Positions 10,052 through 28,468 of a stretch of DNA of 32,093 nucleotides are shown one piece after another. Numbering within the stretch: the stretch's first letter is position 1; the number at the start of each line of letters is the position of its first letter. Below the pieces are notes generated by a model. That model saw nothing but the letters and a program-made list of their open reading frames with translations. It did no database searches and was not told where the DNA came from. Location of the stretch: the NCBI GenBank assembly GCA_018065965.1, contig JAGHSH010000128.1, forward strand, positions 1 through 32,093. Direction: 5' to 3'. Position numbers and translations under genes: made by a program. Source of the DNA: Candidatus Apopatocola equi. Lineage in GTDB: Bacteria > Bacillota > Clostridia > Oscillospirales > Oscillospiraceae.

Positions 10052-10080
10052 AAATAAAAGCCATAGGGGGGGCAGGCAAT

Positions 10081-12321: not shown

Positions 12322-12350
12322 TTGACATACGATAAATGCTCTGATATGTT
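12322..12350 (+). promoter_or_regulatory. Second promoter, ahead of cas5c-cas2, with -10 box inside a hairpin
   Basis: Consensus TTGACA (12322-12327) and TATGTT (12345-12350) are 17 bases apart. The -10 box starts at the end of the left arm of the 12-bp inverted repeat at 12335-12365 and extends into its loop. It would allow the Cascade and adaptation genes to be expressed separately from cas3. Confidence 0.6.
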
Positions 12351-12369
12351 AAATATCAGAGCATTTTAC
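12335..12369 (+). terminator. 12-bp hairpin between cas3 and cas5c (terminator or operator)
   Basis: AATGCTCTGATA and TATCAGAGCATT form a perfect stem with a TGTTAAA loop. Only four T residues follow, so it may be a weak terminator of cas3 transcripts; as DNA it is also a palindrome sitting on a promoter's -10 box. Confidence 0.5.
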
Positions 12370-12391
12370 TATCTTAAAGGCGGTGATTATT

Positions 12392-13039
12392 ATGCGGGAA
12401 ATTACGGTGGAGGTCTGGGGTGACCTGGCATGCTTCACGGCTCCATGGAGCAAGGTGGAACGGTTGAGCTATCCCTTCCCCACCCCATCGGCGGCTCGAG
12501 GCATCCTCTCTGCCATTTACAGCAAGCCGATGGAATTCTACTGGCAGATCCGGCGCATAGAGGTGCTGCGTCCTATCCGTTATCTGAGCTTCAAACGCAA
12601 CGAGGTAAAGAGCACCGTAAGCACGAAACCGATTTATACTGACGAGGATCGCACTCAACGGCAGACGGTAGCGCTGAAAGATGTGCGCTATCGCATTACA
12701 GCATCGATCATTCCCCGTTCGGAGTTCCGAAGCAAGGAAACAGCTCTCTACGAGCAGGCGCTTCGACGGATTCGGGGCGGTAAATGCTTCATGCAGCCCG
12801 CTTTGGGACTGCGAGAGTTTGCGGCTTATTTCGAGCTTTACGACCCGGAAATCCATACCGATGAACCCATCGGCGCAGACATGGATGCTGGTCTTATAGT
12901 CTATGACATCTTCGATCTGGATGATTATAAAAAAGACCAGCCTATGCTCACTCTTTTCCACGCGGAGATGAAGCAGGGAGTCATCGAGGTACCGGAATGG
13001 CACAGTGCGGAGGTACGCCGGGGAGGGCAGCCATGTTAA
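12392..13039 (+). CDS. cas5c: Cas5c (Cas5d), crRNA-processing Cascade subunit
   Basis: A 215-aa RAMP protein of the type I-C Cas5 family. In I-C systems Cas5 replaces Cas6: it cuts the repeat hairpin and stays bound to the 5' handle of the crRNA. Family features seen: EVWGDLACFTAPWSKVERLSYPFPTPSAARGILSAIY at the N-terminus (the F-T-x-P-x-x-K-x-E-R-x-S-Y pattern), LKDVRYRITASI and the glycine-rich GLREFAAYFELY block. The track starts at GTG 12383; ATG 12392 is preferred with AAAGGCGG upstream. It overlaps cas8c by seven bases. Confidence 0.92.
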   Translation: MREITVEVWGDLACFTAPWSKVERLSYPFPTPSAARGILSAIYSKPMEFYWQIRRIEVLRPIRYLSFKRNEVKSTVSTKPIYTDEDRTQRQTVALKDVRYRITASIIPRSEFRSKETALYEQALRRIRGGKCFMQPALGLREFAAYFELYDPEIHTDEPIGADMDAGLIVYDIFDLDDYKKDQPMLTLFHAEMKQGVIEVPEWHSAEVRRGGQPC

Positions 13040-14826
13040 AATCTCTCTATGATTATGCTATTCGCAATGATTTGGTTCTGCCTTCCGGGTATGTCAAAAA
13101 AGTGATTAAGGCCTGGATCCTTCTCTATGAGGACGGAACCTTTCAGGGAATAGAAATGGGCAGCAGCGAGGCAATCGCTGTGCCGGATATCGGATCATTA
13201 GCCAACAGCGCAGACAAGTGCAATATATTGCGGGAGAAACGCAGTGTGGTGATCCCTGAAAAGCCCAGCGCAAAGAGCAGCTATTTTCTGTCTACCCTCC
13301 GGGATGCCGCCGAGGCTGAGCCGAGTTTGTCGCTCTGTGCGGATGCTTTGGAAAATGAGGCGACTGCAGCCACTATCCGGCAGGCGCTGGATGATGCAAA
13401 GATTAAGAAAAACGATGTCATCTCTTTTAAAGTGAATTTGCAGCCGATTATGGATTCGCCCCGTTTTCTTTCGTGGTGGGAAAATTTTCGCAGCACGCTT
13501 GGGAAAAAGAATGGATCGAGCAGCCTATGTCTGATCACGGGACAAGAGACTGTTCCCCTATCCACGGTCAGCAAGGTTGTTGGCCTTCGGTCTGTAGGGG
13601 GACACGCCTCCGGGGATGCCCTCATTTGCTTTGACAAAAGTGCTTTTTGCTCTTACGGTTTGAAACAAGGTGCTAATGCTCCAGTATCTGAGGAAGCGTT
13701 TTCTGCGGCAAATGCTGCATTAAATGAGCTGTTGGAGCACGCTCCCTCCTTGGCGGGCATGAAGTTTGTTCATTGGTTTAACCGTACTCTCCCCCTGGAG
13801 GAAGACCCATTCGCTTCTTGTCGTGATTTCCTTGGTATGGACGTAGACGATGACACAGAAAAAGTCACAGGCGAAGAGAGTATCAACGAGTTTGCCCTCA
13901 CCGCTCAAGCTAATGAGTTGGTGGAAAGTGTGAAGAGCGGTAAGCATGTTTCAATGAACTCTGATGTTGAATACTCCATCCTTCTGCTCTCTGGCGTTAG
14001 TGGACGTGTGATGATTCGCCGTTGGGAGCAAGGTAACTATGCGGAGTTGAAAAAGCGTCTTGAGCAATGGAGCCAAGATTTGGAGTTGGTTCATCCTTCA
14101 GGCAGCGGGACAATCCGCTCTCAAAAGCTCTCTGCCCGTCTGCTTCGGCTGATGAAATATCAGAGTGTTGACAAAAATCCCTTTGAACGTGCCGCGAAAG
14201 AACTTTCCGGTCTCTCACCCGCTATCCTCAACGCAATCCTCAGCGGAGGTCCATTGCCGGATGCTGTGGCTGTGCGTGCATTGAACTACATTCGCTCGTC
14301 CATGCTCTCCGTGGACGATGATGGGAAAAATACCAGCGGGATCTTTGGAAAAGACGCCTGCGTATGGCAGTGGCTGAAGGTCTGGCTGCTGCGAAAGAAT
14401 GGAAGGAGTGAAAACAACCTTATGAGCGAATACAATCCCGACTATCAGGGCGACGCCTATCACTGCGGCGCACAGATGGCGCTGTTCGAAGCGATTCAGA
14501 ATCTGGCTGACCCCAATGTGAATGTGACTGTGGCAGAGCGCTATTATGCCTCCTGCATTCAGACTCCTGCACTGGTGTTGGGGCGTCTCAGCCAGCTTTC
14601 TCAGTACCACCTCGCAAAAGTAGGGGACAAATATAAGAGCCTGGCCGAGATATACCGGGAAAAGCTTGCCACGGTGAACGCATCTATGGAAGGCAAGGCA
14701 CCTACCACTTTGACGCTGACACAGCAGAGCGAGTTTGCGCTGGGTTATTACCAGATGCACGCGTTGCTCAGCCGGGAGAAAAATGAACGTATAGTTGCCA
14801 AAAAAGAGAAAGAAGCCAAGAACTGA
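13033..14826 (+). CDS. cas8c: Cas8c, large subunit of type I-C Cascade
   Basis: A 597-aa Cas8c (Csd1) protein, within the family's usual size. It recognises the PAM and helps open the target DNA. Recognisable parts are the N-terminus MLKSLYDYAIRNDLVLPSGY, the central CLITGQE plus GHASGDALICFDKSAFCSYG and NAPVSEEAF blocks that are diagnostic for Csd1, and a helical C-terminus with RYYASCIQTPALVLGRLSQL. The track starts at 12997 inside cas5c; ATG 13033 behind GGGAGGG fits the family N-terminus. The last 134 codons can also be translated separately as Cas11c. Confidence 0.93.
   Translation: MLKSLYDYAIRNDLVLPSGYVKKVIKAWILLYEDGTFQGIEMGSSEAIAVPDIGSLANSADKCNILREKRSVVIPEKPSAKSSYFLSTLRDAAEAEPSLSLCADALENEATAATIRQALDDAKIKKNDVISFKVNLQPIMDSPRFLSWWENFRSTLGKKNGSSSLCLITGQETVPLSTVSKVVGLRSVGGHASGDALICFDKSAFCSYGLKQGANAPVSEEAFSAANAALNELLEHAPSLAGMKFVHWFNRTLPLEEDPFASCRDFLGMDVDDDTEKVTGEESINEFALTAQANELVESVKSGKHVSMNSDVEYSILLLSGVSGRVMIRRWEQGNYAELKKRLEQWSQDLELVHPSGSGTIRSQKLSARLLRLMKYQSVDKNPFERAAKELSGLSPAILNAILSGGPLPDAVAVRALNYIRSSMLSVDDDGKNTSGIFGKDACVWQWLKVWLLRKNGRSENNLMSEYNPDYQGDAYHCGAQMALFEAIQNLADPNVNVTVAERYYASCIQTPALVLGRLSQLSQYHLAKVGDKYKSLAEIYREKLATVNASMEGKAPTTLTLTQQSEFALGYYQMHALLSREKNERIVAKKEKEAKN
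14422..14826 (+). CDS. cas11c: Cas11c, small Cascade subunit from an internal start in cas8c
   Basis: In-frame ATG at 14422 (Cas8c residue 464) is preceded by AAGGAG at 14403-14408. It would give a 134-aa, mainly helical protein identical to the Cas8c C-terminus (MSEYNPDYQGDAYHCGAQ...). In characterised type I-C systems (Desulfovibrio, Neisseria) the small subunit is made from just such an internal site and is needed for a complete complex. The spacing from AAGGAG to ATG is 13 bases, longer than ideal, and ATG 14479 (GAQMALFEA) is an alternative. This is inference from position and family knowledge. Confidence 0.6.
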   Translation: MSEYNPDYQGDAYHCGAQMALFEAIQNLADPNVNVTVAERYYASCIQTPALVLGRLSQLSQYHLAKVGDKYKSLAEIYREKLATVNASMEGKAPTTLTLTQQSEFALGYYQMHALLSREKNERIVAKKEKEAKN

Positions 14827-14870
14827 CCGACTGAAAGAACAGGAACAGAATCATATAGGAGGACTAAGAT

Positions 14871-15854
14871 ATGTCTATTGAAAATCGTTATGAATTCCTT
14901 TACTACGTGGCTTACACTGATTGCAACCCCAATGGCGACCCGGATATGGGCAACGCTCCCCGCATCGATCCGGAGACTATGCAGGGCTACATCACTGACG
15001 TGTCCGTGAAGCGTCGCATCCGGAACTATGTGGAGTTGGCCCATGGGGACGAGCCGGGTATGGGTATCATCATCCGGCAGAGCAGCAACATCAACGTTGC
15101 TATCGGCGAGGCTAAGGTTGCCGCCGGCGTGGAAGATAACGCCAAGACCAAAGATGCGGTCTATGCGGGTCGGAAAAAGGCCTGCGAGCTTTACTACGAT
15201 GTGCGCACCTTCGGCGCTGTCATGTCCACGGGCCCCAATGCGGGTCAGGTTCGCGGCCCCGTCCAGCTCTCTTTTGGCAGAAGTCTTGACCCCATTCTCC
15301 CTTTGGATATCTCCATCACCCGCATGGCCATTGCCAGCGGGGACACGCTCGCAGAAGCGGAGAAGGTAGAAGCTGAGACCGAGGAGAGATCTCTCCGTAC
15401 CATGGGCCGCAAGCAGTTCATTCCCTTTGGCCTTTACGAATTCCGCGGTTTCATCAGTGCGAATCTGGCTGCGGAAACGGGCTTTGATGACGAGGATCTG
15501 CGCATCCTCTTCGAAGCTATCCTCAACATGTACGAAAACGACCACTCCGCCAGCAAGGGACAGGTCAGCATCGTGTCCCCCTTGATCCTCTTCCGCCACG
15601 ATGGCACCGACTCTGATCTTGTCCAGCGCAAAAAGCAGGCCAAGCTGGGCTGTGCACCGTCCCATAAGCTCTTCGAACTCGTGAAGGTTCAGAAGAAAGA
15701 AAACGTCGATCATCCCCGTTCTTATCGGGACTATGAGGCAACGATCGCCCTTGACAAGGTTCCCAAGGGAATCTCTGTGGGCTTCCAGTCCAATCCCTAC
15801 GGGGAGATCAGCTGGAATAAGCTCCCCGAAGATGAATGGCTTACCCTTGAATGA
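14871..15854 (+). CDS. cas7c: Cas7c, crRNA backbone subunit of type I-C Cascade
   Basis: A 327-aa Cas7/Csd2 protein. Multiple copies form the helical backbone that holds the crRNA spacer. The start ENRYEFLYYVAYTDCNPNGDPDMGNAPRID is the hallmark of this family, followed by DVSVKRRIRNYV, DVRTFGAVMSTG and GQVRGPVQLSFGRSLDPI. The ribosome site is TAGGAGG eight bases before the ATG. Its codon use is more GC-rich than that of cas3 and cas8c, perhaps reflecting high expression. The 3' end overlaps cas4 by 23 bases. Confidence 0.95.
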   Translation: MSIENRYEFLYYVAYTDCNPNGDPDMGNAPRIDPETMQGYITDVSVKRRIRNYVELAHGDEPGMGIIIRQSSNINVAIGEAKVAAGVEDNAKTKDAVYAGRKKACELYYDVRTFGAVMSTGPNAGQVRGPVQLSFGRSLDPILPLDISITRMAIASGDTLAEAEKVEAETEERSLRTMGRKQFIPFGLYEFRGFISANLAAETGFDDEDLRILFEAILNMYENDHSASKGQVSIVSPLILFRHDGTDSDLVQRKKQAKLGCAPSHKLFELVKVQKKENVDHPRSYRDYEATIALDKVPKGISVGFQSNPYGEISWNKLPEDEWLTLE

Positions 15855-16512
15855 GGAGAGAGAATACCTGCCGCTCAGCCGTCTTTCTCAGGCAGAATAC
15901 TGTCTGAGAAGGGCAGCTCTGCTGATGAATGAACAGTTGTGGCAGGAGAACATCGACACAGCAAAAGGCAGAATGGAGCATAGTCGCGTACACGATCATC
16001 GTATTGAGCGGAGGGGAAACTCACTGAAGCTTTACGACTATGAAGTAGTGTCCGAAGAACTAGGTATCAGCGGGAAATGTGACTGCATTGAGGCCGAAGC
16101 GTGGGAAAGCGGCTGCATGATTCCGGCGGCGAACTTCCCGGTAAGGCTCTACCCTGTGGAATATAAGCACGTGACGGTTCGAGAGGAAAGTTCCTATTGC
16201 CTCCAACTGTGTGCCCAGGCGATGGCTCTGGTGGAGATGTATCATGCCCATATTTCGGAGGGAGCCCTCTTCTTTATCAGCTCCCATCGGAGGCTGCCCG
16301 TAGTTCTGGACGATTCTCTCCGCCGGCAGGTGCGTCAGAGAGCAGCAGATTTACGCATGATCCGCAATACCTTTTCAATCCCCCCTGCAGAATACAGTCC
16401 TAAATGCAAAAAGTGCTCATTGAAGGAAGTGTGCATGCCCAAAGCCAAACGGTCTGCTGCTGACTATTGCAAAAGGTTGATTCGCGAGGCGACAGGGGAG
16501 GATGAAATATGA
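15832..16512 (+). CDS. cas4: Cas4, adaptation nuclease
   Basis: A 226-aa RecB-like nuclease that trims and orients prespacers by their PAM together with Cas1-Cas2. The N-terminal cysteine is in RLSQAEYCLRRAALL and the C-terminal cluster is KCKKCSLKEVC, together the four Cys ligands of the iron-sulphur cluster. RecB motifs: ISGKCDCIEAE (Asp) and PVEYKHVT (ExK), with a motif III-like YCLQLCAQAMAL. All expected catalytic residues seem present. The track starts at 15733 in the wrong part of cas7c; ATG 15832 gives the family N-terminus, though its ribosome site is weak and it may be translated by coupling to cas7c. It overlaps cas1 by four bases (ATGA). Confidence 0.9.
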   Translation: MNGLPLNEEREYLPLSRLSQAEYCLRRAALLMNEQLWQENIDTAKGRMEHSRVHDHRIERRGNSLKLYDYEVVSEELGISGKCDCIEAEAWESGCMIPAANFPVRLYPVEYKHVTVREESSYCLQLCAQAMALVEMYHAHISEGALFFISSHRRLPVVLDDSLRRQVRQRAADLRMIRNTFSIPPAEYSPKCKKCSLKEVCMPKAKRSAADYCKRLIREATGEDEI

Positions 16513-17531
16513 AAAAGCTGTTGAACACGCTCTATGTTCTGACCCCTGAGAGCTATCTCTATGTACGAAACCAGACTGTAGGTATTAAGCTGGGCGGTGA
16601 AGAAAAATATTCCGTTCCAGCCGGAAATTTAGACAGCATTGTTTGCTTTGGAGTCAACACGGTCTCTACGCCGTTCATGGGTTTTTGCGCGGAAAATGGT
16701 ATTGCCTTGAGCTTCTTGAGCCCGCAGGGACGATTCCTTGGCCGGGTTCAAGGCGGAGTGAACGGGAACGTACTGCTGCGTCAAGCGCAGTATCATCTTT
16801 TGGATGACGACTCCCGGCGCTTGGAAACGGTAAAGAATATCCTTCTCTGCAAACTCCGCAACAGTCGTGAGGTGCTCCTTCGAAGCGGAAGAAATCAGAA
16901 AGACGATTCGGCCTCTGCTGCTTTGACCGCCGCTGCCAAGTCTATTGCGGCCGTGGCGCAGGATCTTACTCTTGCAGAAAGTCTCGATTCTTTGCGCGGA
17001 CTGGAGGGCGTTGCGGCTGCCCAGTACTTTGCCTGTTTTGATACCATGCTCTATGCCAGCCCCTTGAAATTTAAGGAGCGCAGCCGCCGCCCGCCGAAGA
17101 ACGAGGTCAACGCAGTCCTTTCCTTTGTCTATACAATACTTGGCAACGAAATCACAGCCGCACTGGAAGCCGTGGGGCTGGATCCTGCGGCCGGTATTAT
17201 GTACAGCTTGCGGCCGGGACGCAATTCCTTTGCGTTGGACCTGTTGGAAGAACTGCGTGCACCGCTCTGTGACCGCTTTGTGATATCCCTTTTCAATCAG
17301 CACAGACTAGATGAAAAGGATTTCGACAGTGACGGAGAAGGGGTGTATCTAAATGATAAAGGCCGCAGAACAGTGTTAACCGCATGGCAGCAGCGCAAGC
17401 AAGAAACCGTACTGCATCCTTTTCTAAATGAAAAACTTCAAATAGGGATTATCCCTCATTCTCAGGCCATGCTGTATGCTCGATATCTCCGGGGAGATCT
17501 GGACATCTATCCTCCCTATGTCTGGAGGTAG
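16509..17531 (+). CDS. cas1: Cas1 integrase, with Tyr in place of the catalytic His
   Basis: A 340-aa type I-C Cas1, full length and colinear with family members (MKKLLNTLYVLTPESYL start, RRPPKNEVNAVLSF, RGDLDIYPPYVWR end). Cas1 integrates new spacers using three metal-binding residues. Here Glu166 (LRGLEGVAA) and Asp244 (FALDLLEEL) are present, but the expected histidine in the G-[FI]-[LM]-H-x-x-RPGR block is Tyr232 (GIMYSLRPGR; codon TAC at 17202-17204, one transition from CAC). Mutating this His abolishes acquisition in studied Cas1 proteins, so this enzyme may be inactive. The rest of the gene is undamaged, suggesting a recent change or an assembly error. Confidence 0.95.
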   Translation: MKKLLNTLYVLTPESYLYVRNQTVGIKLGGEEKYSVPAGNLDSIVCFGVNTVSTPFMGFCAENGIALSFLSPQGRFLGRVQGGVNGNVLLRQAQYHLLDDDSRRLETVKNILLCKLRNSREVLLRSGRNQKDDSASAALTAAAKSIAAVAQDLTLAESLDSLRGLEGVAAAQYFACFDTMLYASPLKFKERSRRPPKNEVNAVLSFVYTILGNEITAALEAVGLDPAAGIMYSLRPGRNSFALDLLEELRAPLCDRFVISLFNQHRLDEKDFDSDGEGVYLNDKGRRTVLTAWQQRKQETVLHPFLNEKLQIGIIPHSQAMLYARYLRGDLDIYPPYVWR

Positions 17532-17533
17532 CC

Positions 17534-17824
17534 ATGTTCGTGCTGATAACTTACGATGTGTGCACATCAGATCCGGCAGGCGCTAAAAGGCTGCGGAAAG
17601 TATCCAAGCTCTGCGAACGATACGGTATGCGGGTTCAGAACTCAGTTTTTGAAGTACTGGTAGATGCTGCCCAGTTGGCTGTTCTCAAAGCAGAACTGAA
17701 AAAGATCATTGACCTTGAAACGGATTCTGTTCGTTTTTACCGACTGGGAAATACCTATGAGAACAAGATCGACACTCTTGGAAAGTCTGCTGTGATTGAT
17801 GCTTGTGCTACGCTGCTCTTGTAG
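17534..17824 (+). CDS. cas2: Cas2, adaptation complex subunit
   Basis: A 96-aa Cas2 that dimerises and bridges two Cas1 dimers. The ferredoxin-like fold start is FVLITYDVCTSDPAGAKRLRKV with the conserved Asp8, then YGMRVQNSVFEVLVD and SVRFYRLGNTYENKI, all typical of type I-C Cas2. It begins two bases after the cas1 stop and is the last cas gene; the leader follows at once. Confidence 0.95.
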   Translation: MFVLITYDVCTSDPAGAKRLRKVSKLCERYGMRVQNSVFEVLVDAAQLAVLKAELKKIIDLETDSVRFYRLGNTYENKIDTLGKSAVIDACATLLL

Positions 17825-17994
17825 TGCGCTAAGCCTCCCCACGCAGATCTTACCGTTAGTTTAGCGCAGAAAAAAGAAGCCAAAAACGAGAGTATTCTTT
17901 TGTTTGGCTCAAGACCTTTGTACAATTCATTGCAGAAAAGCAATGTTTTGGAAATAATGCAGCAAAAAGCCGTGATAATTTGTGGGTTTTTGCT
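17825..17994 (+). promoter_or_regulatory. CRISPR leader
   Basis: An AT-rich 170-bp stretch between cas2 and repeat 1. It begins with an 8-bp inverted repeat TGCGCTAA (17825-17832) / TTAGCGCA (17861-17868), which may end the cas transcript or bind the adaptation machinery. A TACAAT box (17921-17926) lacks a good -35, and a small hairpin CATTGC/GCAATG follows. Repeats next to it are perfect while those at the far end are degenerate, which identifies this side as the leader end. Confidence 0.65.
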
Positions 17995-20900
17995 GTCGCC
18001 CCTCGCGCAGGGGCGAGAGTTGAAATTACCTATCTTTGGCGAAGCAATTGAAGAGCTGAGTCGCCCCTCGCGCAGGGGCGAGAGTTGAAATTATTCGTCT
18101 AAGGCAGAAATCATGAAAATCAAAGAGTCGCCCCTCGCGCAGGGGCGAGAGTTGAAATTTTGAGGTCGAAGCTATCATCAAAATCCTCGTCAGGTCGCCC
18201 CTCGCGCAGGGGCGAGAGTTGAAATTTCTTATCGCCATAGCCCGAATCAACGGCGATGGTCGCCCCTCGCGCAGGGGCGAGAGTTGAAATATGACTTGCT
18301 TATCAAGCCAGTATTGCGCTTTTGCGTCGCCCCTCGCGCAGGGGCGAGAGTTGAAATCTTTTCGCCGGAGAAAGTAACGGTAGCATCAAGAGTGGTCGCC
18401 CCTCGCGCAGGGGCGAGAGTTGAAATCAGCCATTCCTTTACAGCAGCACGGCGGGACTGAGGTCGCCCCTCGCGCAGGGGCGAGAGTTGAAATTGTCCGT
18501 GATGGGCTATATGATGGGAGATCTCCCGTCGCCCCTCGCGCAGGGGCGAGAGTTGAAATAACATAGTACAGGACAATGTTTTCCACGGGTGTAGTCGCCC
18601 CTCGCGCAGGGGCGAGAGTTGAAATGATACAGACCAGAACATCATTTTCACGGAAACTGTCGCCCCTCGCGCAGGGGCGAGAGTTGAAATTGGAACGGTG
18701 TCAACCACGCGGATTTTCAGTGACGTCGCCCCTCGCGCAGGGGCGAGAGTTGAAATAAGATCGGAGGGATTGAGATTCTCACCTATCAGTCGCCCCTCGC
18801 GCAGGGGCGAGAGTTGAAATTCAGCTGCCGCTACATTATCTGCAACGACCTGACGTCGCCCCTCGCGCAGGGGCGAGAGTTGAAATCTACAATCACAAAG
18901 GAGGTAACCCAATGGACAAGTCGCCCCTCGCGCAGGGGCGAGAGTTGAAATAGATGACAGTCGGCGATATGGCGGGCAAGGTGCTGTCGCCCCTCGCGCA
19001 GGGGCGAGAGTTGAAATATCTGAACGGCCACATCATAGCCGTAAGAGTTGAGTCGCCCCTCGCGCAGGGGCGAGAGTTGAAATAAGATACAACAGCGCCT
19101 ATGAGGCCGCCATGGACGGTCGCCCCTCGCGCAGGGGCGAGAGTTGAAATACATAGGATGCCGCCTTGATATAAGACTGCATGTCGTCGCCCCTCGCGCA
19201 GGGGCGAGAGTTGAAATTCCTTCTCTGGCGGAGAGCACGCTCTTTTCCATAGTCGCCCCTCGCGCAGGGGCGAGAGTTGAAATGACTCCGTCCAAATCCG
19301 AATCAAACTCAAATTCGGTCGCCCCTCGCGCAGGGGCGAGAGTTGAAATCTTCTTGGTCTACTTATCAGCAGACTCTTGAATCGTCGCCCCTCGCGCAGG
19401 GGCGAGAGTTGAAATTACACCGAGTATTTCCTCCCGATCCATGACGCTATGTCGCCCCTCGCGCAGGGGCGAGAGTTGAAATTTTATAGACTATTGCAAG
19501 ATCTTTATAGACCATGTCGCCCCTCGCGCAGGGGCGAGAGTTGAAATATGCAATTCCAACACAGCACCCGGCCATATGTTGTCGCCCCTCGCGCAGGGGC
19601 GAGAGTTGAAATTGAACGTGGGCGGCACGGCCCAGTTCAACAACAGGTCGCCCCTCGCGCAGGGGCGAGAGTTGAAATTGGCACCGCCAGGCGCCCGAGG
19701 GCGAGCCGGTACGGTCGCCCCTCGCGCAGGGGCGAGAGTTGAAATTCGCAGGCCTCGCACCGTGCGCTGGCGCAGTCCTCGTCGCCCCTCGCGCAGGGGC
19801 GAGAGTTGAAATACGGACTGGCTCAGCGGCTCCGCCGCTGCCAAGGTCGCCCCTCGCGCAGGGGCGAGAGTTGAAATTGACCTCAGGAACTATATTAACC
19901 GGACATCCGGAGGTCGCCCCTCGCGCAGGGGCGAGAGTTGAAATCTATTGCGCCCACTACACCACGAAAAAGATTGTGTCGCCCCTCGCGCAGGGGCGAG
20001 AGTTGAAATGGGTCATTCCACCATTGAGCAACAGTAGAACCAGGTCGCCCCTCGCGCAGGGGCGAGAGTTGAAATAAGCTCATAAAAAGGAACAGGAGTC
20101 CAACGGGAAGTCGCCCCTCGCGCAGGGGCGAGAGTTGAAATTCGTCGTTTTCGGCGTACATGTCGGCGCTGATCGGTCGCCCCTCGCGCAGGGGCGAGAG
20201 TTGAAATACGCCGACATGGCGGAACGCAGGGCTGTATGCCCGGGTCGCCCCTCGCGCAGGGGCGAGAGTTGAAATGGTTAAGTTCTGATCGCGGAAGAAT
20301 CTATCCACGTCGCCCCTCGCGCAGGGGCGAGAGTTGAAATACAAAAACGGCGGTCTTACTATGATCAAGTTCAAGACAGTCGCCCCTCGCGCAGGGGCGA
20401 GAGTTGAAATATTGCGCTGGTTGTGCTTCTGACCGTGCTCAAAGTCGCCCCTCGCGCAGGGGCGAGAGTTGAAATAAGACCGCCCGCAATCAAGCTGTCA
20501 TATTCGCCTTCAGTCGCCCCTCGCGCAGGGGCGAGAGTTGAAATAATAACAACGCGCTTCATCGGCTTGTCATTAGTGGTCGCCCCTCGCGCAGGGGCGA
20601 GAGTTGAAATCCGGCGGACGCGGATCGGCTGCTGGAGGCCGCAGGTCGCCCCTCGCGCAGGGGCGAGAGTTGAAATATCCAAAAAATAACCAGCAATACC
20701 GGGTCGGCGAGGTCGCCCCTCGCGCAGGGGCGAGAGTTGAAATTTTTTGAGGATACCCTTCCATCCGATGGAGCTGTCAGTCGCCCCTCGCGCAGGGGCG
20801 AGAGTTGAAATAGGAGAGGTTCCTGCAGGTGTAAACTCAACACCGGGTCGCCCCTCGCGCAGGGGCGAGAGTTGAAATAGCAGTATGGCGGAAGTAAGCC

Positions 20901-21596
20901 TTATCAGCAGAAGGTCGCCCCTCGCGCAGGGGCGAGAGTTGAAATTGATCCTCAATGAAGCGGACGTGCTCGGAGGAGGTCGCCCCTCGCGCAGGGGCGA
21001 GAGTTGAAATTACATACACCCGGAGAAGCGCTACTACACGGTCGAGGTCGCCCCTCGCGCAGGGGCGAGAGTTGAAATCTGATGACGGTAGTACTACAGG
21101 CAACCCTAGAACGTCGCCCCTCGCGCAGGGGCGAGAGTTGAAATATGGTGTTCTTTGCCAGCGCCCCGCGTCCGAAAGCGTCGCCCCTCTCGCGGGGGCG
21201 AGAGTTGAAATTTTCAGAGTTACGGAAATTACTTCAGAGCCAGCAGTCGCCCCTCGCGCAGGGGCGAGAGTTGAAATTTGGGGCAGTGTATATTATTAGG
21301 TCGCCCTCAGGTCGCCCCTCGCACAGGGGCGAGAGTTGAAATAGAGTAATGAAAACAGCCTTCTTGGTATGGTCAAAGTCGCCCCTCGCACAGGGGCGAG
21401 AGTTGAAATTGAAGAATCACAACATCTTTATCGCCGAAAGCAAGTCGCCCCTCGCGCAGGGGCGAGAGTTGAAATTACCCTGGTGATACCTTTGATGTAT
21501 CCGTGAGTAGTCGCCCCTCTCGCAGGGGCGAGAGTTGAAATGAGCGTGACGGTCTGAAGGCCGGAAACCTCGACAGGTCGCCCCTCACGCAGGGGC
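17995..21596 (+). CRISPR. Type I-C CRISPR array, 55 repeats and 54 spacers
   Basis: The 32-nt repeat starts GTCGCCCCTCGCGCA and ends GAGAGTTGAAAT, the I-C style (GTCGCC start, TTGAAA near the end). CGCCCC and GGGGCG pair around a TCGCGCA loop, the substrate for Cas5c; the last bases form the crRNA 5' handle, so transcription is left to right. I counted repeat starts by hand from 17995 to 21577, with spacers of 32-38 nt (mean about 34). By eye, repeats 1-48, 50 and 53 are identical; 49, 51, 52 and 54 differ only in or beside the loop, and the last (21577-21596) is cut after 20 nt. No two spacers look alike. Several carry apparent gene starts. Confidence 0.98.
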
Positions 21597-21616
21597 AAAT
21601 GCTTTCCGGAAAAGAG

Positions 21617-21655
21617 AAAAAAGCAGCAGAGTCATTGTCTGATTCTGCTGCTTTT
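21617..21655. terminator. Bidirectional terminator between array and unknown gene
   Basis: GCAGCAGA ... TCTGCTGC stem (11 pairs with inner G-T, T-A and C-G) is flanked by A6 on the left and T4 on the right, so it can end the array transcript on the plus strand and the 483-aa gene on the minus strand. Confidence 0.75.
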
Positions 21656-21691
21656 GCATTTTCCTTCGTCTGCCGATTCTCGATGAAAACA

Positions 21692-23143
21692 TCATTCTGC
21701 CGGCACTATTTTTTCGCTTGATCTCGGAGGAGTGGGGACATCATCGAAATAAGTGATTTGTACGCCCAAATCCGCCAGTATTTCCAAAAGGGGAAGTTGT
21801 TTAACAGACCAGTGCTCTCGTTTGTATTCGTAGTGAGAATCACCGCACTCCTCATAAACGATTTCATAGGAATCATTCTCATATTCCTCCTCCGGCGTGG
21901 AGAAGAACGGCGTATAGAGCCCAAGCTCACGATCATAGGTTGTTAGGATACCGGCGGGAAAAGACCCTAATAATTGGTAATCTATTCGATAATATCCGTT
22001 GCCCTGGTCAAGTAAGCGAGTCATCTTTCCCAGATATGCTGATGAACTTTTTATGCGTTGACGAAAAACAAAGTCAGACCACACTATAAAAAAGCAAGGG
22101 ACTGATGTATAAAAGCCCGTATCCTCATATATGGGGGTGTATTTTGAAATGATGGGGGCGGAAGTATAGCGAGACTCAAGTGCCCTTTCATTCTGAACAT
22201 AGAGATGCCCGGTTTTTCTATCTGGGTTATAGTTGAATTCATTAGTGACGAAATCGTTAGCAATGAAATTGTAAAAAATGCAGTCAGAAAAAGAGGGGTG
22301 ATTGCCGAAATTGTGGTCTTCTGAACAGCCAAAATTTACATCGCATGGATTAGTGTCGGTCTCTACACTATCATTCCCGGCGGGGGAGAACACAGGGCTT
22401 CCTTCTTCTGTAGCCGATATTTCAGGCGGAGCATTGTCGTTGCTGCAATCAGTGAAACTATCGGAAGTCAGGAGGACCGGTTTGTCACAATACACAAGGC
22501 CAACGGCTGCCGGACCGTACTTCTCCAATTCGGAGATATATCCGGAGCCAACGTCTTTCCACCGCTTTACTGTATCAGCCCCGTCTTTCACATTGACGTG
22601 GCATAGGGCATACTCCCAAACGCCTAACAGAAAAGGCTGTACTGTAACGGAAGATAAATGACGCAGCTCTGCTTTTGAGCAGGGGTGGCCATCTTCAAAA
22701 ATATAAAACAGTTGAGATTCGGATATCTTAGAGTCATGAAGAATCAGCCCGATGAGTGCCAAAACAAGGTGCTCATCTTTTCTTGTATCAGCGGCTACGT
22801 CGAGAAAAGTTGAGACAAGATCACACATGGCGGAAAGCGGAATCATGTAATGATGCTGAACCTGCTCTTGAAAAGCCTTTCGCACAGCGGGGTCTCTGAA
22901 GTTGCATATTGGACCACCGTACCCGGTGCAGTTTTTCAAAATAGAGGCTTGCGTCTTAACTACGTCACGTGTACCGGTGGAGTACTCAGGAGGCTCACCT
23001 CGGACACATTCTCCTAAAGCCATGTACAGATCAGAATCGGATGTACCGCTCCGAACTCCTTGATAACGCTGGCCGTAATTTTTTTGAGGCCGCTTGGAAT
23101 CTGACAACAAGCGAAAAAATGTACCGGCACAGAGCCTGTCCAT
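21692..23143 (-). CDS. Unknown protein, 483 aa, accessory cargo beside the array
   Basis: I do not recognise a named function. The N-terminal 170 or so residues (MDRLCAGTFFRLLSDSKRPQ, later LKNCTGYGG, then KDEHLVLALIGLILHDSKI and VQPFLLGVWEYAL) resemble an N-terminal region I have seen in hypothetical proteins of Firmicutes accessory genomes; this is an impression. The middle (about 220-290) is rich in Ser, Asn, Asp and Cys and looks disordered. The C-terminal part has aromatic and acidic stretches, no membrane segments and no nuclease or ATPase motif that I can see. ATG 23143 is preferred over TTG 23149, with AGGTGG upstream on the minus strand. It has its own promoter and terminator, like a stand-alone cargo gene. 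A defence or regulatory role is only a guess from position. Confidence 0.8.
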   Translation of the reverse strand: MDRLCAGTFFRLLSDSKRPQKNYGQRYQGVRSGTSDSDLYMALGECVRGEPPEYSTGTRDVVKTQASILKNCTGYGGPICNFRDPAVRKAFQEQVQHHYMIPLSAMCDLVSTFLDVAADTRKDEHLVLALIGLILHDSKISESQLFYIFEDGHPCSKAELRHLSSVTVQPFLLGVWEYALCHVNVKDGADTVKRWKDVGSGYISELEKYGPAAVGLVYCDKPVLLTSDSFTDCSNDNAPPEISATEEGSPVFSPAGNDSVETDTNPCDVNFGCSEDHNFGNHPSFSDCIFYNFIANDFVTNEFNYNPDRKTGHLYVQNERALESRYTSAPIISKYTPIYEDTGFYTSVPCFFIVWSDFVFRQRIKSSSAYLGKMTRLLDQGNGYYRIDYQLLGSFPAGILTTYDRELGLYTPFFSTPEEEYENDSYEIVYEECGDSHYEYKREHWSVKQLPLLEILADLGVQITYFDDVPTPPRSSEKIVPAE

Positions 23144-23190
23144 TGTCAAAGCACCACCTATTTTTGATTTTGGTGAAAGCGAATAACATA

Positions 23191-23219
23191 ATTATAGCAG
23201 AAAAGAAGAGTATTGTCAT
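23191..23219 (-). promoter_or_regulatory. Promoter of the 483-aa unknown gene
   Basis: On the minus strand ATGACA (23214-23219) and a perfect TATAAT (23191-23196) are 17 bases apart, about 48 bases upstream of the ATG. The remaining divergent gap to the primase gene (23220-23390) is AT-rich and shows no further clear gene. Confidence 0.65.
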
Positions 23220-23390
23220 CCAGATATTTTTTACTAACTTTACCTGGCTTTTTTACCAATCTTTCCGCCAACACTTGGTGCATGCAAGGGAATCTTACTT
23301 TTTACTAGCAAGCGTAAGGCAGAGAGCTGCGACTTATGGGAAGGTCAGCTCCGGCCAGTAAATATATGCCGCTTATGTCGGCGGAGAGGA

Positions 23391-25679
23391 GTGACAAAAG
23401 TGTCATCACCAATTGAAGATTTGAAGAACCAGCCCGTCTGGCTGTGCTACCGGAAACAGAATCGGGACGGGAGAACCAGCAAAGTGCCTTGCTCTGCTGC
23501 GGGAGTGAGAACCGGCACCACGGAGGAGTACCGCAGTACATGGGTCATCTACGACGAGGCCGTAAAGGGAGCGGAGCGGATCGGCGCCGACGGCGTTGGG
23601 TTCGTGCTCCAGCCGGGAATGTTCCTGCTGGACATGGATGGCGTGGACGCCGGGAGTCCACGGGTGCGTGAGCTGCTCGATCGTTTTGGTAGCTACGCTG
23701 AACTAAGCCAGAGCGGTCACGGTATCCACATCTATGGGGAGTGCAATTTGTCCCAGATTCCCACAACAAAACGGGAAGGCAGGATGACGCTGAGCGACCG
23801 TTATTGGACGCGCCACGGTGATTTGGAGCTTTACATAGGAGGAATCACCAACCGCTATGCTGCTTTTACGGGAAATGCGTTGATGGATATTCCGCTCCAA
23901 GACTGCACCGATGCCGTGCTGGAAACGCTGGAGCGTGATCTGAAGCGGGACGAGGGACAGCCTTGGCAGACCCCGCTCACAGAGGAGGAAGTCGAAGGGC
24001 TGAGAGATCTGGATGCTGCGGAAGTAATTGATGCCCTGTGCAGACAGGCAAACGGCGAGAAGTTCCGTCGGCTGTTTTACGACGGCGACCTAACTGATTA
24101 TGGCGGCGATCAGTCGAGGGCTGATCTGGCGCTCTGCTCCATGATTGCATTTCGCACGGGGGATGACCCGGCACTTATCGACGCTGTATTCCGCGAATCC
24201 GCCTTATACAGGGCCAAGTGGGAGCGGGAGGACTACCGCCGGGATACTATCCGCAAGGCCATTGAAGGGCAGAGGGGGCAGTTCTACACACCGCCGGAAG
24301 AAGTACCCTATTTCGTGATTCGCGATCGTAAGGGCCACGAGTCCATCAGTAAACCTCTGCTGGCACGGTATGTCCGGGAGAACCTGACCTACATCCTGGT
24401 GCGAGACAACGCCACACAGGGAATCCTGACCTATGTCTACCGTGACGGCTACTACCAGCTTTATGCCCCAGAAATGCTCAAAGGCGAGATCCGGGCTATG
24501 ATTGAAGCCTACGACGAGAGGCTGGTGTCCATGCCCGTCATCAACGAAGTCTACCAGATTTTGCTGACCGACATGGACTACCACCAGCAGGATGAGCTGA
24601 ACGAGGACGAAAGTCTGATCAACATCGAAAACGGTTTACTCAAAGTCACCGGGGAGAGTACGGAGTTGCTGCCCCACACCCCGGAGGTCCTTTCCACGAT
24701 CCGGATTCCGGTTCGCTGGACGGGAGAGGCAGGAGACACGCCGGTCTTCGACAGCTATCTACAGCAGCTTTCCGGGGGAAATAACGAAGTGATCGATTTC
24801 CTCAAAGAGTTCATGGGCGTGGCGCTCTCCAACGTGAAGGGCTACAGAATGAAAAAGGCGCTCTTTCTGGTTGGCCCCGGCAATACCGGCAAAAGTCAAT
24901 TCAAGCGGCTTCTGGAGCGGCTTCTGGGCCCGGAAAACTTCGCCAGCATCGATCTGAGCACACTGGAGGCGCGCTTTGGCACCGCCAACGCCTACGGAAA
25001 GCGGCTGGTGGGGAGTGCAGATCTGGGCTATGCAAGCCTGCGGGAGCTCCGTGTTTTCAAGCAGATGACGGGCGGGGACTCAATATTTGCTGAATTCAAG
25101 GGCGTTCAAAGCTTTTTCTTCGTGTACGTGGGCCTGATTCTTTTTGCCATGAATGAGCTGCCACGCTTCGGCGGTGACAACGGAGACTGGGTTTACGACA
25201 GAATTATCCCCCTGCGCTGCGAGAATGTGATCCCCGCGGCGATGCAGGATAAAGCTCTCCTTGACAAACTCTATGCTGAGCGTGACGGAATCTTCTATCG
25301 TGCGGTAGAGGCACTGCAAAAGGTCATGAGGAACGGCTACGCCTTTGACGAGCCGAAGTGCGTGGCAAAAGAGCGGTGGGAATACAGCCGGGTCAACAAC
25401 TCTGCGCTGACCTTTATTTCCGAGTGCATGGAGGCAATCGGTGAGCAGCAGCATAAAGAGACCTGCACCAGCGGTATCGTATATAGGCTTTACCGCGCCT
25501 GGTGTAACGATAATGCCAATGGATTCGCAAAGACTGACCGGGAGTTCAAGAGCGCCGTGGCAGACTGGTTGCTATGTGACGAGAAGGAAGTCGTGGAGCA
25601 CCGACGGGGCGGAAATTACTACCGGGAGCTGACGCCCACAGAGGAAATCTTCCAACGGTATTACGGCAGGTGGAATTAA
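23391..25679 (+). CDS. Phage/plasmid-type primase-helicase (PrimPol plus P4/D5 superfamily 3 helicase)
   Basis: A 762-aa replication protein. The N-terminal third looks like a PrimPol-type primase (FVLQPGMFLLDMDGVD with acidic metal ligands, then ELSQSGHGIHIYGE, the s-G-x-G-x-H-x-x nucleotide-binding motif). The C-terminal half is a D5/P4 helicase: Walker A FLVGPGNTGKSQ at about 495, GKRLVGSADLGYASLREL (Walker B region), FKQMTGGDSIFAEFKG and ILFAMNELPRF (motif C). Such proteins open and prime the origin of phages, plasmids and satellites. Start is GTG 23391 or GTG 23400; the second has better spacing from GAGAGGAG. It implies the element can replicate after excision. No frameshift is visible. 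Confidence 0.85.
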   Translation: MTKVSSPIEDLKNQPVWLCYRKQNRDGRTSKVPCSAAGVRTGTTEEYRSTWVIYDEAVKGAERIGADGVGFVLQPGMFLLDMDGVDAGSPRVRELLDRFGSYAELSQSGHGIHIYGECNLSQIPTTKREGRMTLSDRYWTRHGDLELYIGGITNRYAAFTGNALMDIPLQDCTDAVLETLERDLKRDEGQPWQTPLTEEEVEGLRDLDAAEVIDALCRQANGEKFRRLFYDGDLTDYGGDQSRADLALCSMIAFRTGDDPALIDAVFRESALYRAKWEREDYRRDTIRKAIEGQRGQFYTPPEEVPYFVIRDRKGHESISKPLLARYVRENLTYILVRDNATQGILTYVYRDGYYQLYAPEMLKGEIRAMIEAYDERLVSMPVINEVYQILLTDMDYHQQDELNEDESLINIENGLLKVTGESTELLPHTPEVLSTIRIPVRWTGEAGDTPVFDSYLQQLSGGNNEVIDFLKEFMGVALSNVKGYRMKKALFLVGPGNTGKSQFKRLLERLLGPENFASIDLSTLEARFGTANAYGKRLVGSADLGYASLRELRVFKQMTGGDSIFAEFKGVQSFFFVYVGLILFAMNELPRFGGDNGDWVYDRIIPLRCENVIPAAMQDKALLDKLYAERDGIFYRAVEALQKVMRNGYAFDEPKCVAKERWEYSRVNNSALTFISECMEAIGEQQHKETCTSGIVYRLYRAWCNDNANGFAKTDREFKSAVADWLLCDEKEVVEHRRGGNYYRELTPTEEIFQRYYGRWN

Positions 25680-25918
25680 GGGGGTGTGAACGCGGTGAGG
25701 GAAATCCTTATTCTGAAGTACTGTCCAAAAAAAGTACTCTTTTTTTCTGAAAAGAATTTGCAATTTCCCTTCATTGTGTTCACCAATGTGGCCGTGGGTC
25801 GAGTGCAAACGTGACCCTAGTTCCGGTAACCGTATGTTTCGAAATATAGTTTAAAACAACGCCGCCATGTGCTGCGGTGTGGTATGTCAAGTATTTTTTA
25901 TAAAAAAGGAGTTATCAA
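25680..25918. other. 239-bp gap between primase and DUF2815 genes
   Basis: It holds AGTACT repeated around an A7 run (25718-25738), a long T run and a short hairpin ACGCCGC/GCGGTGT near 25860. A 42-codon GTG-started reading frame just after the primase stop has no recognisable features. It could hold a replication origin or a promoter, but I cannot show either. Confidence 0.3.
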
Positions 25919-26473
25919 ATGATTGCAACCAAAGTTGTCACCGGCGAGAGAACCCGGTGGTCTTATGTTCATGTGCTAGAGCCGCAGAGCATCAACGGCT
26001 CCAAGCCGAAATACTCCGTCTGCCTGTTGATCCCCAAGGAGGATCAGGCAACGGTGGATGCTATTCGTGAGGCAATCAGATTTGCCTATACCGCCGGGAA
26101 AGCTAAACTACAAGGGAATAGCAAAAGCGTTCCTCCTTTGGAAACCATCAAGACGCCTCTTCGTGACGGCGATGTGGAGCACCCGGGAGAACTGCCCTAT
26201 GCTAATTGCTTCTTCCTAAACGCTAACAACACCATCAGACCCCAAGTTGTAGATTCTGAATGCCGCCCCATTATGAATCAGGAAGACGTCTATTCCGGAT
26301 GCTACGGTCGTGCCAGCATCAGCTTCTATGCTTTTAATGTAAACGGGAACCGCGGTATCGCCTGTGGCTTGAACAGCCTTCAGAAGTTAAGCGACGGAGA
26401 TCGACTGGGCGGAGGACCGTCTTCTGCCGCGTTGGATTTCGGCGATATGATTTCTGATCCGCTGTTATTATGA
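25919..26473 (+). CDS. DUF2815-family phage-type protein (probable single-stranded DNA-binding protein)
   Basis: A 184-aa protein that fits DUF2815, found in replication modules of Firmicutes phages and prophages: VVTGERTRWSYVHVLEPQSI at the start, KPKYSVCLLIPKED, a central block with LRDGDVEHPGE, and the C-terminal GCYGRASISFYAFNVNGNRGIACGLNSLQKLSDGDRLGG that is typical of the family. Family members are considered ssDNA-binding proteins with an OB-like fold, which suits the neighbouring primase-helicase. ATG 25919 follows AAGGAG. The KGG-motif gene follows after 12 bases. Confidence 0.82.
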   Translation: MIATKVVTGERTRWSYVHVLEPQSINGSKPKYSVCLLIPKEDQATVDAIREAIRFAYTAGKAKLQGNSKSVPPLETIKTPLRDGDVEHPGELPYANCFFLNANNTIRPQVVDSECRPIMNQEDVYSGCYGRASISFYAFNVNGNRGIACGLNSLQKLSDGDRLGGGPSSAALDFGDMISDPLLL

Positions 26474-26485
26474 AGGAGGAGACCT

Positions 26486-26920
26486 ATGCCATCTGACAAC
26501 ACTGCCAATCTTCGTCAGTACCGCAACCCTTTAAGCCCGGAGGAAGCCCGTGAAAACGGCCGTAAGGGCGGTTTGGCATCCGGTGAATCACGCCGTCGCC
26601 GCAAAGCCATGCGGGATGTCCTCTCCAACCTTATGACGGCAGAGGTCACTGAACCGGAGCTGAAAGAGCTTCTGGAGGCTTGTGGACTGCCTGCAACGCA
26701 GGAGGCAGCAATCTGCTTTGCCGCGGTGAAACGTGCCCAGAGAGGAGATATTGAGGCCTGCCGCTTTGTGCGGGACACGTTGGGCGAAAAGCCTGTTACA
26801 GGCGTATCCGTTGCACCGCTGTATGAGCTCACAGCCGAAGAACTGAAACGAATAGACATGTCCCAATATTCTGACGCTGAGCTGCTCCTGATGATTGAGC
26901 AGGCAGAAGAAGTGCGATAA
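26486..26920 (+). CDS. KGG-motif small phage-like protein
   Basis: A 144-aa soluble protein with an N-terminal basic motif (SPEEARENGRKGGLASGESRRRRKAMRD), a helical middle (LEACGLPATQEAAICFAAVKRAQRGDIEACRFVRDTLGEKP) and an acidic end. The combination NGRKGG plus the A-Q-x-G-D-x-x-A-x-x-x-x-R-D-x-x-G-E-K-P segment recalls proteins found beside terminase small subunits in Firmicutes phages and satellites; this is by pattern memory. It may bind DNA. No terminase partner is visible. Strong ribosome site GAAGGAGG; it is co-transcribed with the DUF2815 gene and convergent with int. Confidence 0.7.
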   Translation: MPSDNTANLRQYRNPLSPEEARENGRKGGLASGESRRRRKAMRDVLSNLMTAEVTEPELKELLEACGLPATQEAAICFAAVKRAQRGDIEACRFVRDTLGEKPVTGVSVAPLYELTAEELKRIDMSQYSDAELLLMIEQAEEVR

Positions 26921-26960
26921 AAAACCGGACCCCCACGACCATGAAGGCTGTGGGGGCCTT
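26921..26960. terminator. Bidirectional terminator between KGG gene and integrase
   Basis: CCCCCAC (26930-26936) and GTGGGGG (26950-26956) form the stem; on the minus strand a T6 run follows, so it ends the integrase transcript well. The plus-strand T run is short. Confidence 0.7.
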
Positions 26961-26971
26961 TCTGCATTATC

Positions 26972-28174
26972 TCACAGGTTCAGGGCGGCAGCAAGACCGT
27001 TGGCTGCGCTCTTCATCCGTGTCATATCCGTGGAAACATAGAAGTTCAAAGTGGTGCTGGCATCTGTGTGACCGAGGATCTCCTGCACGCTCTTGATATC
27101 CGCACCGCTACTGAGGAGCAGAGTGGCACAAGTGTGACGGAGATCGTGGGGGGACATATCCGGCAGACCGTGGGTCTCCATGAAGCGCTTCACTCTGTGG
27201 GTCACGGCACCGGGATCGCGGGGAAGTAGACCGGCATCATCGGCAGGGAAGAGAAGGTGATCATCGGCTGCGGCGCTCCGAAGCTGCTTCAGTTCCTCCG
27301 CTACGAAGGGCATGAGCGGGACTTCGCGGATGCTGTTGGCGGTCTTGGGTGTGCTGACTTCTATCCCGTGTGCCTTAGTTTTCATCACACTCCGGCGCAC
27401 CTCAATCACCAGCGTATCGAAATGAATGTCCCGCCACTGCAGCCCGAGCAGCTCTCCCCGCCGGACGCCGGTGGTGATCATCAGGTAGAGCATGCAGCGA
27501 AACTCAAGCTCCAAAGCAGGGAGAAGAGAAATGAAACGGGAAGCATCCTCCTGTGAGAGTGCATTGACTTTTTTTCGTGTGAGCTTGGGGCAGCTGATTT
27601 TGCTCATAGGGTTCTTGATAATCAACTCCAGCTCCATGGCATACTGAAAGACCTGTACTAACACGCAATAGCAGTGGCGGATCGTCACGTCCCCTATGGG
27701 CTTCCCTTGCGGACTGCGGTACTCGGTGCGCAGGTAGGTGAAGAAGGCCTTCAGATCGGTTATGGTGAGATCTGCAATGTCATGCCCACGGAAGTACTCG
27801 ACCACGATCCGCGTGACGGAGCGGTAGAACTCTACGGTGGAGGGCTTGCGGCTGCCGTCTTCAACGCAGTCGGGAAACCAAATCTGCTCCGTAAAGGCGG
27901 CAAACTCTGTGGGACGGGTAGACAGGGATGCTAATTCGGTGGGAGCGGGACCGTGATTCAGCAGGGACTCCTCATACTCCCGGCGCATCGTCTTCTCCCA
28001 CTGACCCGCTGCGGCTTTTGCTGCACGTTCCGCTTTGGACGGGGACATACCGTCGGGAATTTTCCATGAGGTACTGCGAACAATCTGCTTCCCGGCATCG
28101 TCCCTGGCGACGCAGGTACGAAAGTGATAGGAATAATTTTTGCCGTTTTTCTTGTAGAGGGTGATGGTTGCCAT
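26972..28174 (-). CDS. int: Site-specific tyrosine recombinase (integrase) of the element
   Basis: A 400-aa phage-type integrase. It has an N-terminal arm-type DNA-binding region (ATITLYKKNGKNYSYHFR), a core-binding SAM-like domain (TVEFYRSVTRIVVEYFRGHDIADLT) and a catalytic domain with Arg in TTGVRRGELLGLQ, His-x-x-Arg in SPHDLRHTCATLL, His in ILGHTDAST and nucleophile Tyr in LNFYVSTD: an intact R-H-R-H-Y set. It cuts and joins the tRNA-Leu attachment site. The track starts at TTG 28210; ATG 28174 (MATITLY) with AAAGG upstream is preferred. It reads inward, with its start 119 bases from the right direct repeat, the usual place for an integrase. No excisionase gene is visible. Confidence 0.92.
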   Translation of the reverse strand: MATITLYKKNGKNYSYHFRTCVARDDAGKQIVRSTSWKIPDGMSPSKAERAAKAAAGQWEKTMRREYEESLLNHGPAPTELASLSTRPTEFAAFTEQIWFPDCVEDGSRKPSTVEFYRSVTRIVVEYFRGHDIADLTITDLKAFFTYLRTEYRSPQGKPIGDVTIRHCYCVLVQVFQYAMELELIIKNPMSKISCPKLTRKKVNALSQEDASRFISLLPALELEFRCMLYLMITTGVRRGELLGLQWRDIHFDTLVIEVRRSVMKTKAHGIEVSTPKTANSIREVPLMPFVAEELKQLRSAAADDHLLFPADDAGLLPRDPGAVTHRVKRFMETHGLPDMSPHDLRHTCATLLLSSGADIKSVQEILGHTDASTTLNFYVSTDMTRMKSAANGLAAALNL

Positions 28175-28225
28175 AGCTGTGCTGACCTTTCCGTTCCCGG
28201 AAAATGCCAAGGAATTCGGACAGCC

Positions 28226-28248
28226 TGTTACAAACGGTGTTACAAATG
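28226..28248. repeat. Right copy of 23-bp tandem motif (candidate integrase arm site)
   Basis: It is identical to 9703-9725 (TGTTACAAACGG then TGTTACAAATG). The preceding dozen bases are also similar (AAT-CGGA-AGC). Its distance to the tRNA repeat differs from that on the left, so it is not part of the same duplication. Confidence 0.55.
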
Positions 28249-28292
28249 GGACGAAATCAGCGCCAGAGAGAGCTGCAACTCCGCGTCACCGC

Positions 28293-28430
28293 AAACAAAA
28301 AAGCCTTGAAACCGTTGAAGTTTCAAGGCTTTTACGATGGCGCGCGAGGGGGGACTCGAACCCCCACGTCCGGAGTGGACACTAGAACCTGAATCTAGCG
28401 AGTCTACAAATTCCACCACTCGCGCGTGTC
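28293..28430. repeat. Right attachment-site direct repeat
   Basis: The second copy of the 138-bp tRNA-Leu plus terminator unit; see the left copy. Mismatches are at 28306, 28317, 28341 and 28408. Confidence 0.85.
28338..28425 (-). tRNA. tRNA-Leu (CAG), second copy, probably defective
   Basis: It has the same anticodon, variable arm and stems as the left copy, but with two changes at key positions. Residue 18 is U instead of the invariant G (28408), breaking the G18-pseudouridine55 contact between D and T loops. The discriminator base is G73 instead of A73 (28341), and A73 is a main leucine identity element. A tRNA search program would probably still report it. Its 5' side faces the chromosome, where a consensus promoter lies. 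Confidence 0.85.
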
Positions 28431-28439
28431 AGCCTGGTA

Positions 28440-28468
28440 ATAATAGCACCGGGACAAATTTTTGTCAA
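28440..28468 (-). promoter_or_regulatory. Chromosomal tRNA-Leu promoter
   Basis: On the minus strand TTGACA (28463-28468) and TATTAT (28440-28445) are 17 bases apart, ending about 15 bases before the tRNA. It is close to consensus and lies outside the direct repeat, so it was presumably the original promoter of the tRNA before integration. Confidence 0.75.

Follow-up and report, generated by a model that had tools for sequence, protein, structure and literature searches.

We identified two full-length tRNA-Leu(CAG) genes, called in agreement by ARAGORN and Infernal, that bracket an integrative element of about 18.8 kb carrying a type I-C CRISPR-Cas system in Candidatus Apopatocola equi. The window, by which we mean the whole stretch of DNA analyzed, is 32,093 nucleotides long and corresponds to contig C49 of a MAG (G000) of 1.56 Mb that is divided among 293 contigs and is 75.6% complete. 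The left tRNA gene is intact. The right gene, which adjoins the integrase gene, carries U18 and G73 and is most likely a redundant duplicate undergoing decay.

The explanation we favor, with a probability of about 0.6 for the whole, combines insertion at the anticodon beside an older relic, an attP site that contained a complete tRNA, and later decay of the right copy. By tyrosine-integrase recombination, the element would have entered the single tRNA-Leu(CAG) gene of the host in its anticodon region, at an insertion site that is recurrent in the genus and beside the remains of a related element inserted earlier. The attP of the element would have carried the complete tRNA sequence, not just the usual 3' part, and integration would thus have produced two full genes. 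With two copies present selection would be relaxed, and the right copy would then have gained U18 and G73 while the left copy stayed intact. The duplication, the two variants and their uniqueness, the arm sites and the promoter geometry are read from the sequence itself; where the crossover fell, whether mutation or insertion came first, and the expression, charging and dependence are inferred.

The two tRNA-Leu(CAG) genes

Both genes lie on the minus strand. The left copy (9490-9577) has G18 and A73 and is identical to the gene of a sister species (G001), and the right copy (28338-28425) has U18 (base 28408) and G73 (base 28341). These are the sole differences between the two tRNAs, the corresponding bases of the left copy being G at 9560 and A at 9493 as read on the minus strand. 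A comparison of Infernal scores, proposed in an earlier note on this DNA, gives 49.4 bits for the left copy and 44.8 bits for the right; both are far above the cut-off, and by its score the right copy would not stand out. Folding the two tRNAs into secondary structures was uninformative.

The genes are part of a direct repeat of 138 bp, consisting of the tRNA, its terminator and 5 nt upstream, with copies on the minus strand at 9445-9582 and 28293-28430 that are 97.1% identical. Apart from the two tRNA differences, the repeats have two mismatches, both within the terminator. The identity of the tRNA copies could have been sharpened by later gene conversion. As the sequence comes from a fragmented and incomplete MAG, bases 28408 and 28341 might be consensus errors or reflect a mixed strain. 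However, a single contig holds both repeats, told apart by four separate differences, and the right flank is syntenic with that of two genus relatives (G001 and G006), and we consider an assembly artifact very unlikely.

Positions 18 and 73

G18G19 and A73 are found in 35 of 35 other tRNA-Leu(CAG) genes, 34 from relatives in the family plus the left copy; one of the 35 is cut at a contig end, and the automatic count puts its A73 one position away. We also searched 401 genomes of the family with degenerate patterns, which detect solely tRNAs that are otherwise close to the window sequence. One search asked for the 5' half of this tRNA with any base except G at position 18, the other for its 3' half with any base except A at position 73; the right copy was the only match to either. 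In viral contigs, a tRNA pattern allowing G or U at position 18 gave two matches, none with U18. Judged by these sequence comparisons, U18 and G73 are not a normal polymorphism.

In E. coli, leucylation requires A73 and the contacts between G18G19 and the T-loop, and the G73 of tRNA-Ser works against LeuRS (PMC9976931). The earlier note had named A73 as a key leucine identity element and G18 as invariant, which agrees both with their importance to the E. coli enzyme and with their constancy in all 35 genes. The left copy has the A73 and G18G19 that E. coli LeuRS needs, and the right copy lacks this combination. The changes at U18 and G73 would be expected to prevent leucylation of the right copy. 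It had also been proposed, from an A73-to-G change in human tRNA-Leu, that the right copy might be charged with serine. That result does not transfer directly, because converting a leucine to a serine tRNA in E. coli took eight changes, according to the title of a study in the reference list of PMC9976931, and seryl-mischarging of the right copy is speculative.

Gene content of the element

The element occupies 9583-28292, between the two repeats. A tyrosine integrase gene (26972-28210, minus strand; Phage_integrase domain, 2.7e-27) lies downstream of the right tRNA gene, 127 nt from it and in the same direction. On the plus strand are the genes cas3, cas5c, cas8c, cas7c, cas4, cas1 and cas2 of a type I-C system (10081-17824), followed by a CRISPR array (17994-21600, the end being approximate) in which 54 repeat copies were found, with a spacing of 64-69 nt among the copies listed. 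Further on are plus-strand genes for a primase/helicase-like protein with NrS-1 polymerase HBD, DUF5906 and D5_N domains (23391-25679) and for an Enc34/Gp2.5-like single-stranded DNA-binding protein (25919-26473). The CRISPR-Cas operon thus shares its integrative element with replication genes of phage type. A protein of 485 amino acids encoded between the array and the primase gene (21692-23149) is without a Pfam or PHROGs match. No structural or conjugation genes were recognized among the element proteins searched, and the CRISPR array gave no match to phages.

The layout is that of an element targeted to a tRNA gene by a tyrosine integrase: the integrase gene adjoins the tRNA gene, and both ends carry the target repeat and arm-type sites. 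The displaced tRNA fragment usual at the far end, which is not strictly required, is absent and a full tRNA gene stands there instead. The best relative of the integrase, 56% identical, is encoded in another genus (G025) and adjoins the same tRNA, the far end of that element being off the contig. In a search for further copies of the element, the integrase protein gave one distant match in genome contigs, and no close relative was found in viral contigs, phages, plasmids, the order or the genus of G025.

Arm-type sites and a probable older insertion

We identified a predicted arm-type integrase site on the integrase side of the element (28217-28246, minus strand), in which TGTAACA is repeated at 12-bp spacing. 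A second predicted site, identical at 28 of 30 positions to this 30-nt motif, is found at the far end (9694-9723, minus strand). When the right-side motif was slid across the whole window, the best match after these two was a site beyond the left tRNA gene that agrees at 21 of 30 positions and has the same orientation (9367-9396, minus strand). This eroded site lies 94 nt from the end of the left tRNA gene, compared with 92 nt on the right side, and only one in 5000 shuffles of the left flank gave as good a match. Arm-type sites thus bracket the left tRNA gene on both sides, as they would at the junction of two tandem elements. From its sequence and placement, the eroded site probably marks where an earlier element ended, and because of it the insertion in the window looks like the second at this position, beside an older relic. 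We looked for remains of an integrase gene beyond the left copy and found none.

Further to the left, the panE gene ends at 9269, and homology with the panE regions of two relatives (G008 and G002) stops at this same position. Between panE and the left terminator, the sequence 9270-9444 has no match in the relatives' panE regions and is probably the remains of the earlier element. As judged from the eroded site that it carries, the 3' flank of the left copy is not clean host DNA. Since panE does not adjoin the tRNA gene in G001 or G006, an unexplained rearrangement must also have taken place here.

Close tandem pairs of tRNA-Leu(CAG) genes occur in several genomes of the family, and the host might have had such a pair before insertion; the element would then have entered one gene and the left copy would be the second, with a promoter of its own. 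However, the stretch that separates the left copy from the far-end arm site contains no displaced 3' tRNA fragment and has the layout of an element end in this family, and every genus relative with an assembled tRNA-Leu(CAG) gene carries a single full-length copy. A prior tandem pair is highly improbable.

Position of the crossover

Integrases that are 46-48% identical in amino acid sequence are found in the family beside genes for tRNA-Pro, tRNA-Val, tRNA-Arg and other tRNAs. We examined five related elements for which the DNA covered both ends (genomes G163, G155, G035, G048 and G160; loci L059, L064-L068, L070 and L071). All five have a 3' fragment of the tRNA, 47-53 nt in length, at the end opposite the integrase. 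The identity with the tRNA starts at position 29, 30 or 31 in four of the five and in the same anticodon region in the fifth, for which a full tRNA was not called. As the identity begins there, this family of elements uses the anticodon stem-loop. In a genus member (G005), tRNA-Leu(CAG) is likewise the target, cut at position 32 by a different integrase.

The window itself contains no boundary inside the tRNA, so we infer the crossover site from these relatives. The -10 of the outward promoter is 96, 96, 97, 77 and 98 nt from the core in the five elements; the window gives 100 nt for a core at tRNA position 32 and 69 nt for one at the tRNA start. The distance from the core to the integrase-side arm site is 150 nt for position 32 and 181 nt for position 1, compared with 128-131 nt in the relatives, and part of the excess over the relatives at position 32 comes from the greater length of a class II tRNA. 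The far-arm distance favors neither position. Based on where identity starts in the relatives and on the spacing of promoter and arm sites, the crossover of the window element was probably in the anticodon stem-loop.

A crossover at the anticodon would mean that integration exchanges halves of the tRNA gene. The right gene would then consist of the host promoter, a host 5' half with U18 and an element 3' half with G73, and the left gene of the outward promoter of the element, an element 5' half with G18 and an older 3' half with A73. Thus U18 would belong to the host-side DNA and G73 to the element DNA, and excision would leave U18 and A73 in the chromosome. The suggestion in the earlier note that a whole damaged gene was placed behind the host promoter does not hold under this geometry, which puts only G73 on element DNA.

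Its account would instead require a crossover near the 5' end of the tRNA, by which the element brought in a whole damaged tRNA and left the intact host gene behind an element promoter, as an addiction-like trait. The duplication of whole genes with 5 nt of identity on the 5' side would fit this, as would the promoter contexts, which are as that account describes them, and the finding of no other tRNA-Leu(CAG) in the assembly. However, related integrases cross over at the anticodon, the promoter and integrase-arm spacings favor a core at position 32 over position 1 (the far-arm spacing being neutral), and the 3' flank of the left copy bears an element-type arm site. We therefore regard a 5'-end crossover as unlikely.

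Since an anticodon crossover assigns U18 to the host and G73 to the element, alleles that existed beforehand would fit as well. A host tRNA with U18 and A73 and an element tRNA with G18 and G73 could have been shuffled in one step into a doubly changed tRNA and a normal one, the insertion repairing the host tRNA. This would require two independent rare alleles to meet, and the other tRNA-Leu(CAG) genes examined in the family all have G18 and A73; we think it rather unlikely. As every relative has G18 and A73, we prefer the order in which both changes arose after insertion to one in which each partner contributed one of them.

An attP site containing a whole tRNA appears to be rare but has precedent in this family of elements, given that decayed 5' halves are found on the attP side of two relatives. 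The vestigial tRNA 5' half of G048 matches in register at 15 of 29 positions, as none of 500 shuffles did, and that of G035 has a local match of 16 nt (p 0.002).

We also observed that insertions have targeted tRNA-Leu(CAG) repeatedly. Beside it or in its vicinity, integrase genes or a displaced tRNA fragment are found in two other genus members, G005 (L072) and G004 (L073), and in G025 (L058), which belongs to another genus.

Promoters and terminators

The right copy is preceded by a chromosomal promoter on the minus strand (28468-28440; TTGACA-17-TATTAT, 11 of 12 consensus positions, with an extended -10). By eye, the same arrangement stands in front of the tRNA-Leu(CAG) gene in seven genus relatives (G001, G002 and G004-G008), and the nucleotidyltransferase gene beyond the promoter is syntenic in G001 and G006. 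Since its position is conserved in the genus and the neighboring gene is syntenic, this promoter is native to the chromosome. The description of the right copy as a U18/G73 tRNA behind a near-consensus chromosomal promoter is therefore borne out.

For the left copy, the nearest promoter-like site upstream in the sense direction lies in element DNA (9676-9647, minus strand; TTGCAA-18-TACAAT, with TG before the -10). The earlier note was correct that this copy has G18 and A73 and that its nearest candidate promoter belongs to the element; the promoter assignment does not follow from the motif itself, as a match of 9 of 12 is not significant alone (p about 0.15) and only its position is telling. 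The place and direction of the site fit a promoter that, in the circular form of the element, would direct transcription through attP toward the integrase gene. Judging from the sequences of its relatives, such an outward promoter is an ordinary feature of this family, comparable to the 3'-end integrase promoters of excised ICEs.

An intrinsic terminator with a 15-bp stem follows the right copy on the element side (28299-28333, minus strand) and separates the tRNA from the integrase gene, and its counterpart follows the left copy (9451-9485, minus strand). With this terminator staying in place, the displacement that would allow cotranscription of tRNA and integrase in the integrated state is not seen.

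The proposal that integration had swapped promoters between the two tRNAs thus survives in part: the intact copy is on the side of the element promoter and the damaged copy on the side of the chromosomal promoter, but halves would have been exchanged, not whole genes. A more fitting description is that tRNA halves were exchanged where an earlier element had already inserted, with subsequent decay of one copy.

Possible dependence of the host on the element

If tRNA-Leu(CAG) is used by the host, it probably comes from the left copy via the outward promoter of the element. A count of further tRNA-Leu(CAG) genes, which the earlier note had suggested, found none elsewhere in the assembly, itself 75.6% complete. 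CUG is the commonest leucine codon in the host genes of the window, accounting for 58%.

Leu(UAG) can read CUG through wobble. At a threshold of E 1e-15, 16 of 151 genomes of the family, nearly all of them at least 90% complete, have no match to tRNA-Leu(CAG), and in one that is 100% complete (G223) the long-arm tRNAs include those for Leu UAA, UAG, CAA and GAG, not CAG. Given these genomes and the wobble reading by Leu(UAG), loss of tRNA-Leu(CAG) seems to be tolerated in the family, though it is perhaps costly. It is conceivable, but in our view doubtful, that the only working tRNA-Leu(CAG) of the host is supplied from the promoter that serves the integrase in the circular element, in which case losing the CRISPR-carrying element would cost growth because excision would leave a tRNA with U18.

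Comparison with known elements

Of the 3919 islands in Islander, 2083 are anticodon-centered, and 125 tandems are listed (PMC4383910). As in its class A islands, the integrase gene in the window adjoins a regenerated tRNA gene with a native promoter, and a direct repeat is present at both ends (PMC4383910). However, the far end in the window is a full-length tRNA and not a fragment, and the copy on the integrase side is damaged. Islander discards matches that fall within a full-length tRNA gene, and because second-end matches of this kind are rejected, the layout of the window would escape it (PMC4383910).

In ICEKp1, ICEclc and ICEEc1, a promoter at the 3' end drives the integrase in the excised form (PMC13023037). 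The window has a similar putative outward promoter opposite the integrase, recognized here from sequence, that would read across attP in the circle. These ICEs have a displaced tRNA terminator, and their integrase is transcribed from the tRNA promoter (PMC13023037), whereas the window keeps a strong terminator between tRNA and integrase. It differs further in that its outward promoter would read a complete tRNA when integrated, and in that no conjugation genes were recognized among the element proteins searched. The five related elements of the family resemble that of the window in their integrases, their tRNA targets, the 12-bp spacing of their arm repeats and the distance of the far-end promoter. 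However, they are 4-10 kb in length, compared with 18.8 kb, and their far ends have only a tRNA 3' fragment. In the literature searched we found no directly comparable case of full-length tRNA duplication by islands.

An element that enters a tRNA gene is generally regarded as neutral for this target, because it restores the gene under the gene's own promoter. The window differs in that the restored copy appears to be dead and the intact copy now lies behind an element promoter. If the dependence described above is true, plain duplication and decay of the copy with the host promoter made a mobile element hard to lose, which would be a simple path to an element that is costly to lose without a toxin-antitoxin system. 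Given that a standard island-finding pipeline rejects second ends within full-length tRNAs, such cases may be undercounted (PMC4383910).

One further feature was observed at the ends of these elements. In the window, the far-end leader shows no significant pairing with the 5' region of the integrase. In the related elements of G035, G048 and G160, and at borderline level in G155, the far-end leader has runs of 11-14 nt that are complementary to the DNA between the tRNA and the integrase gene (p 0 to 0.013), and these could pair in a transcript of the circle, for example against the terminator.
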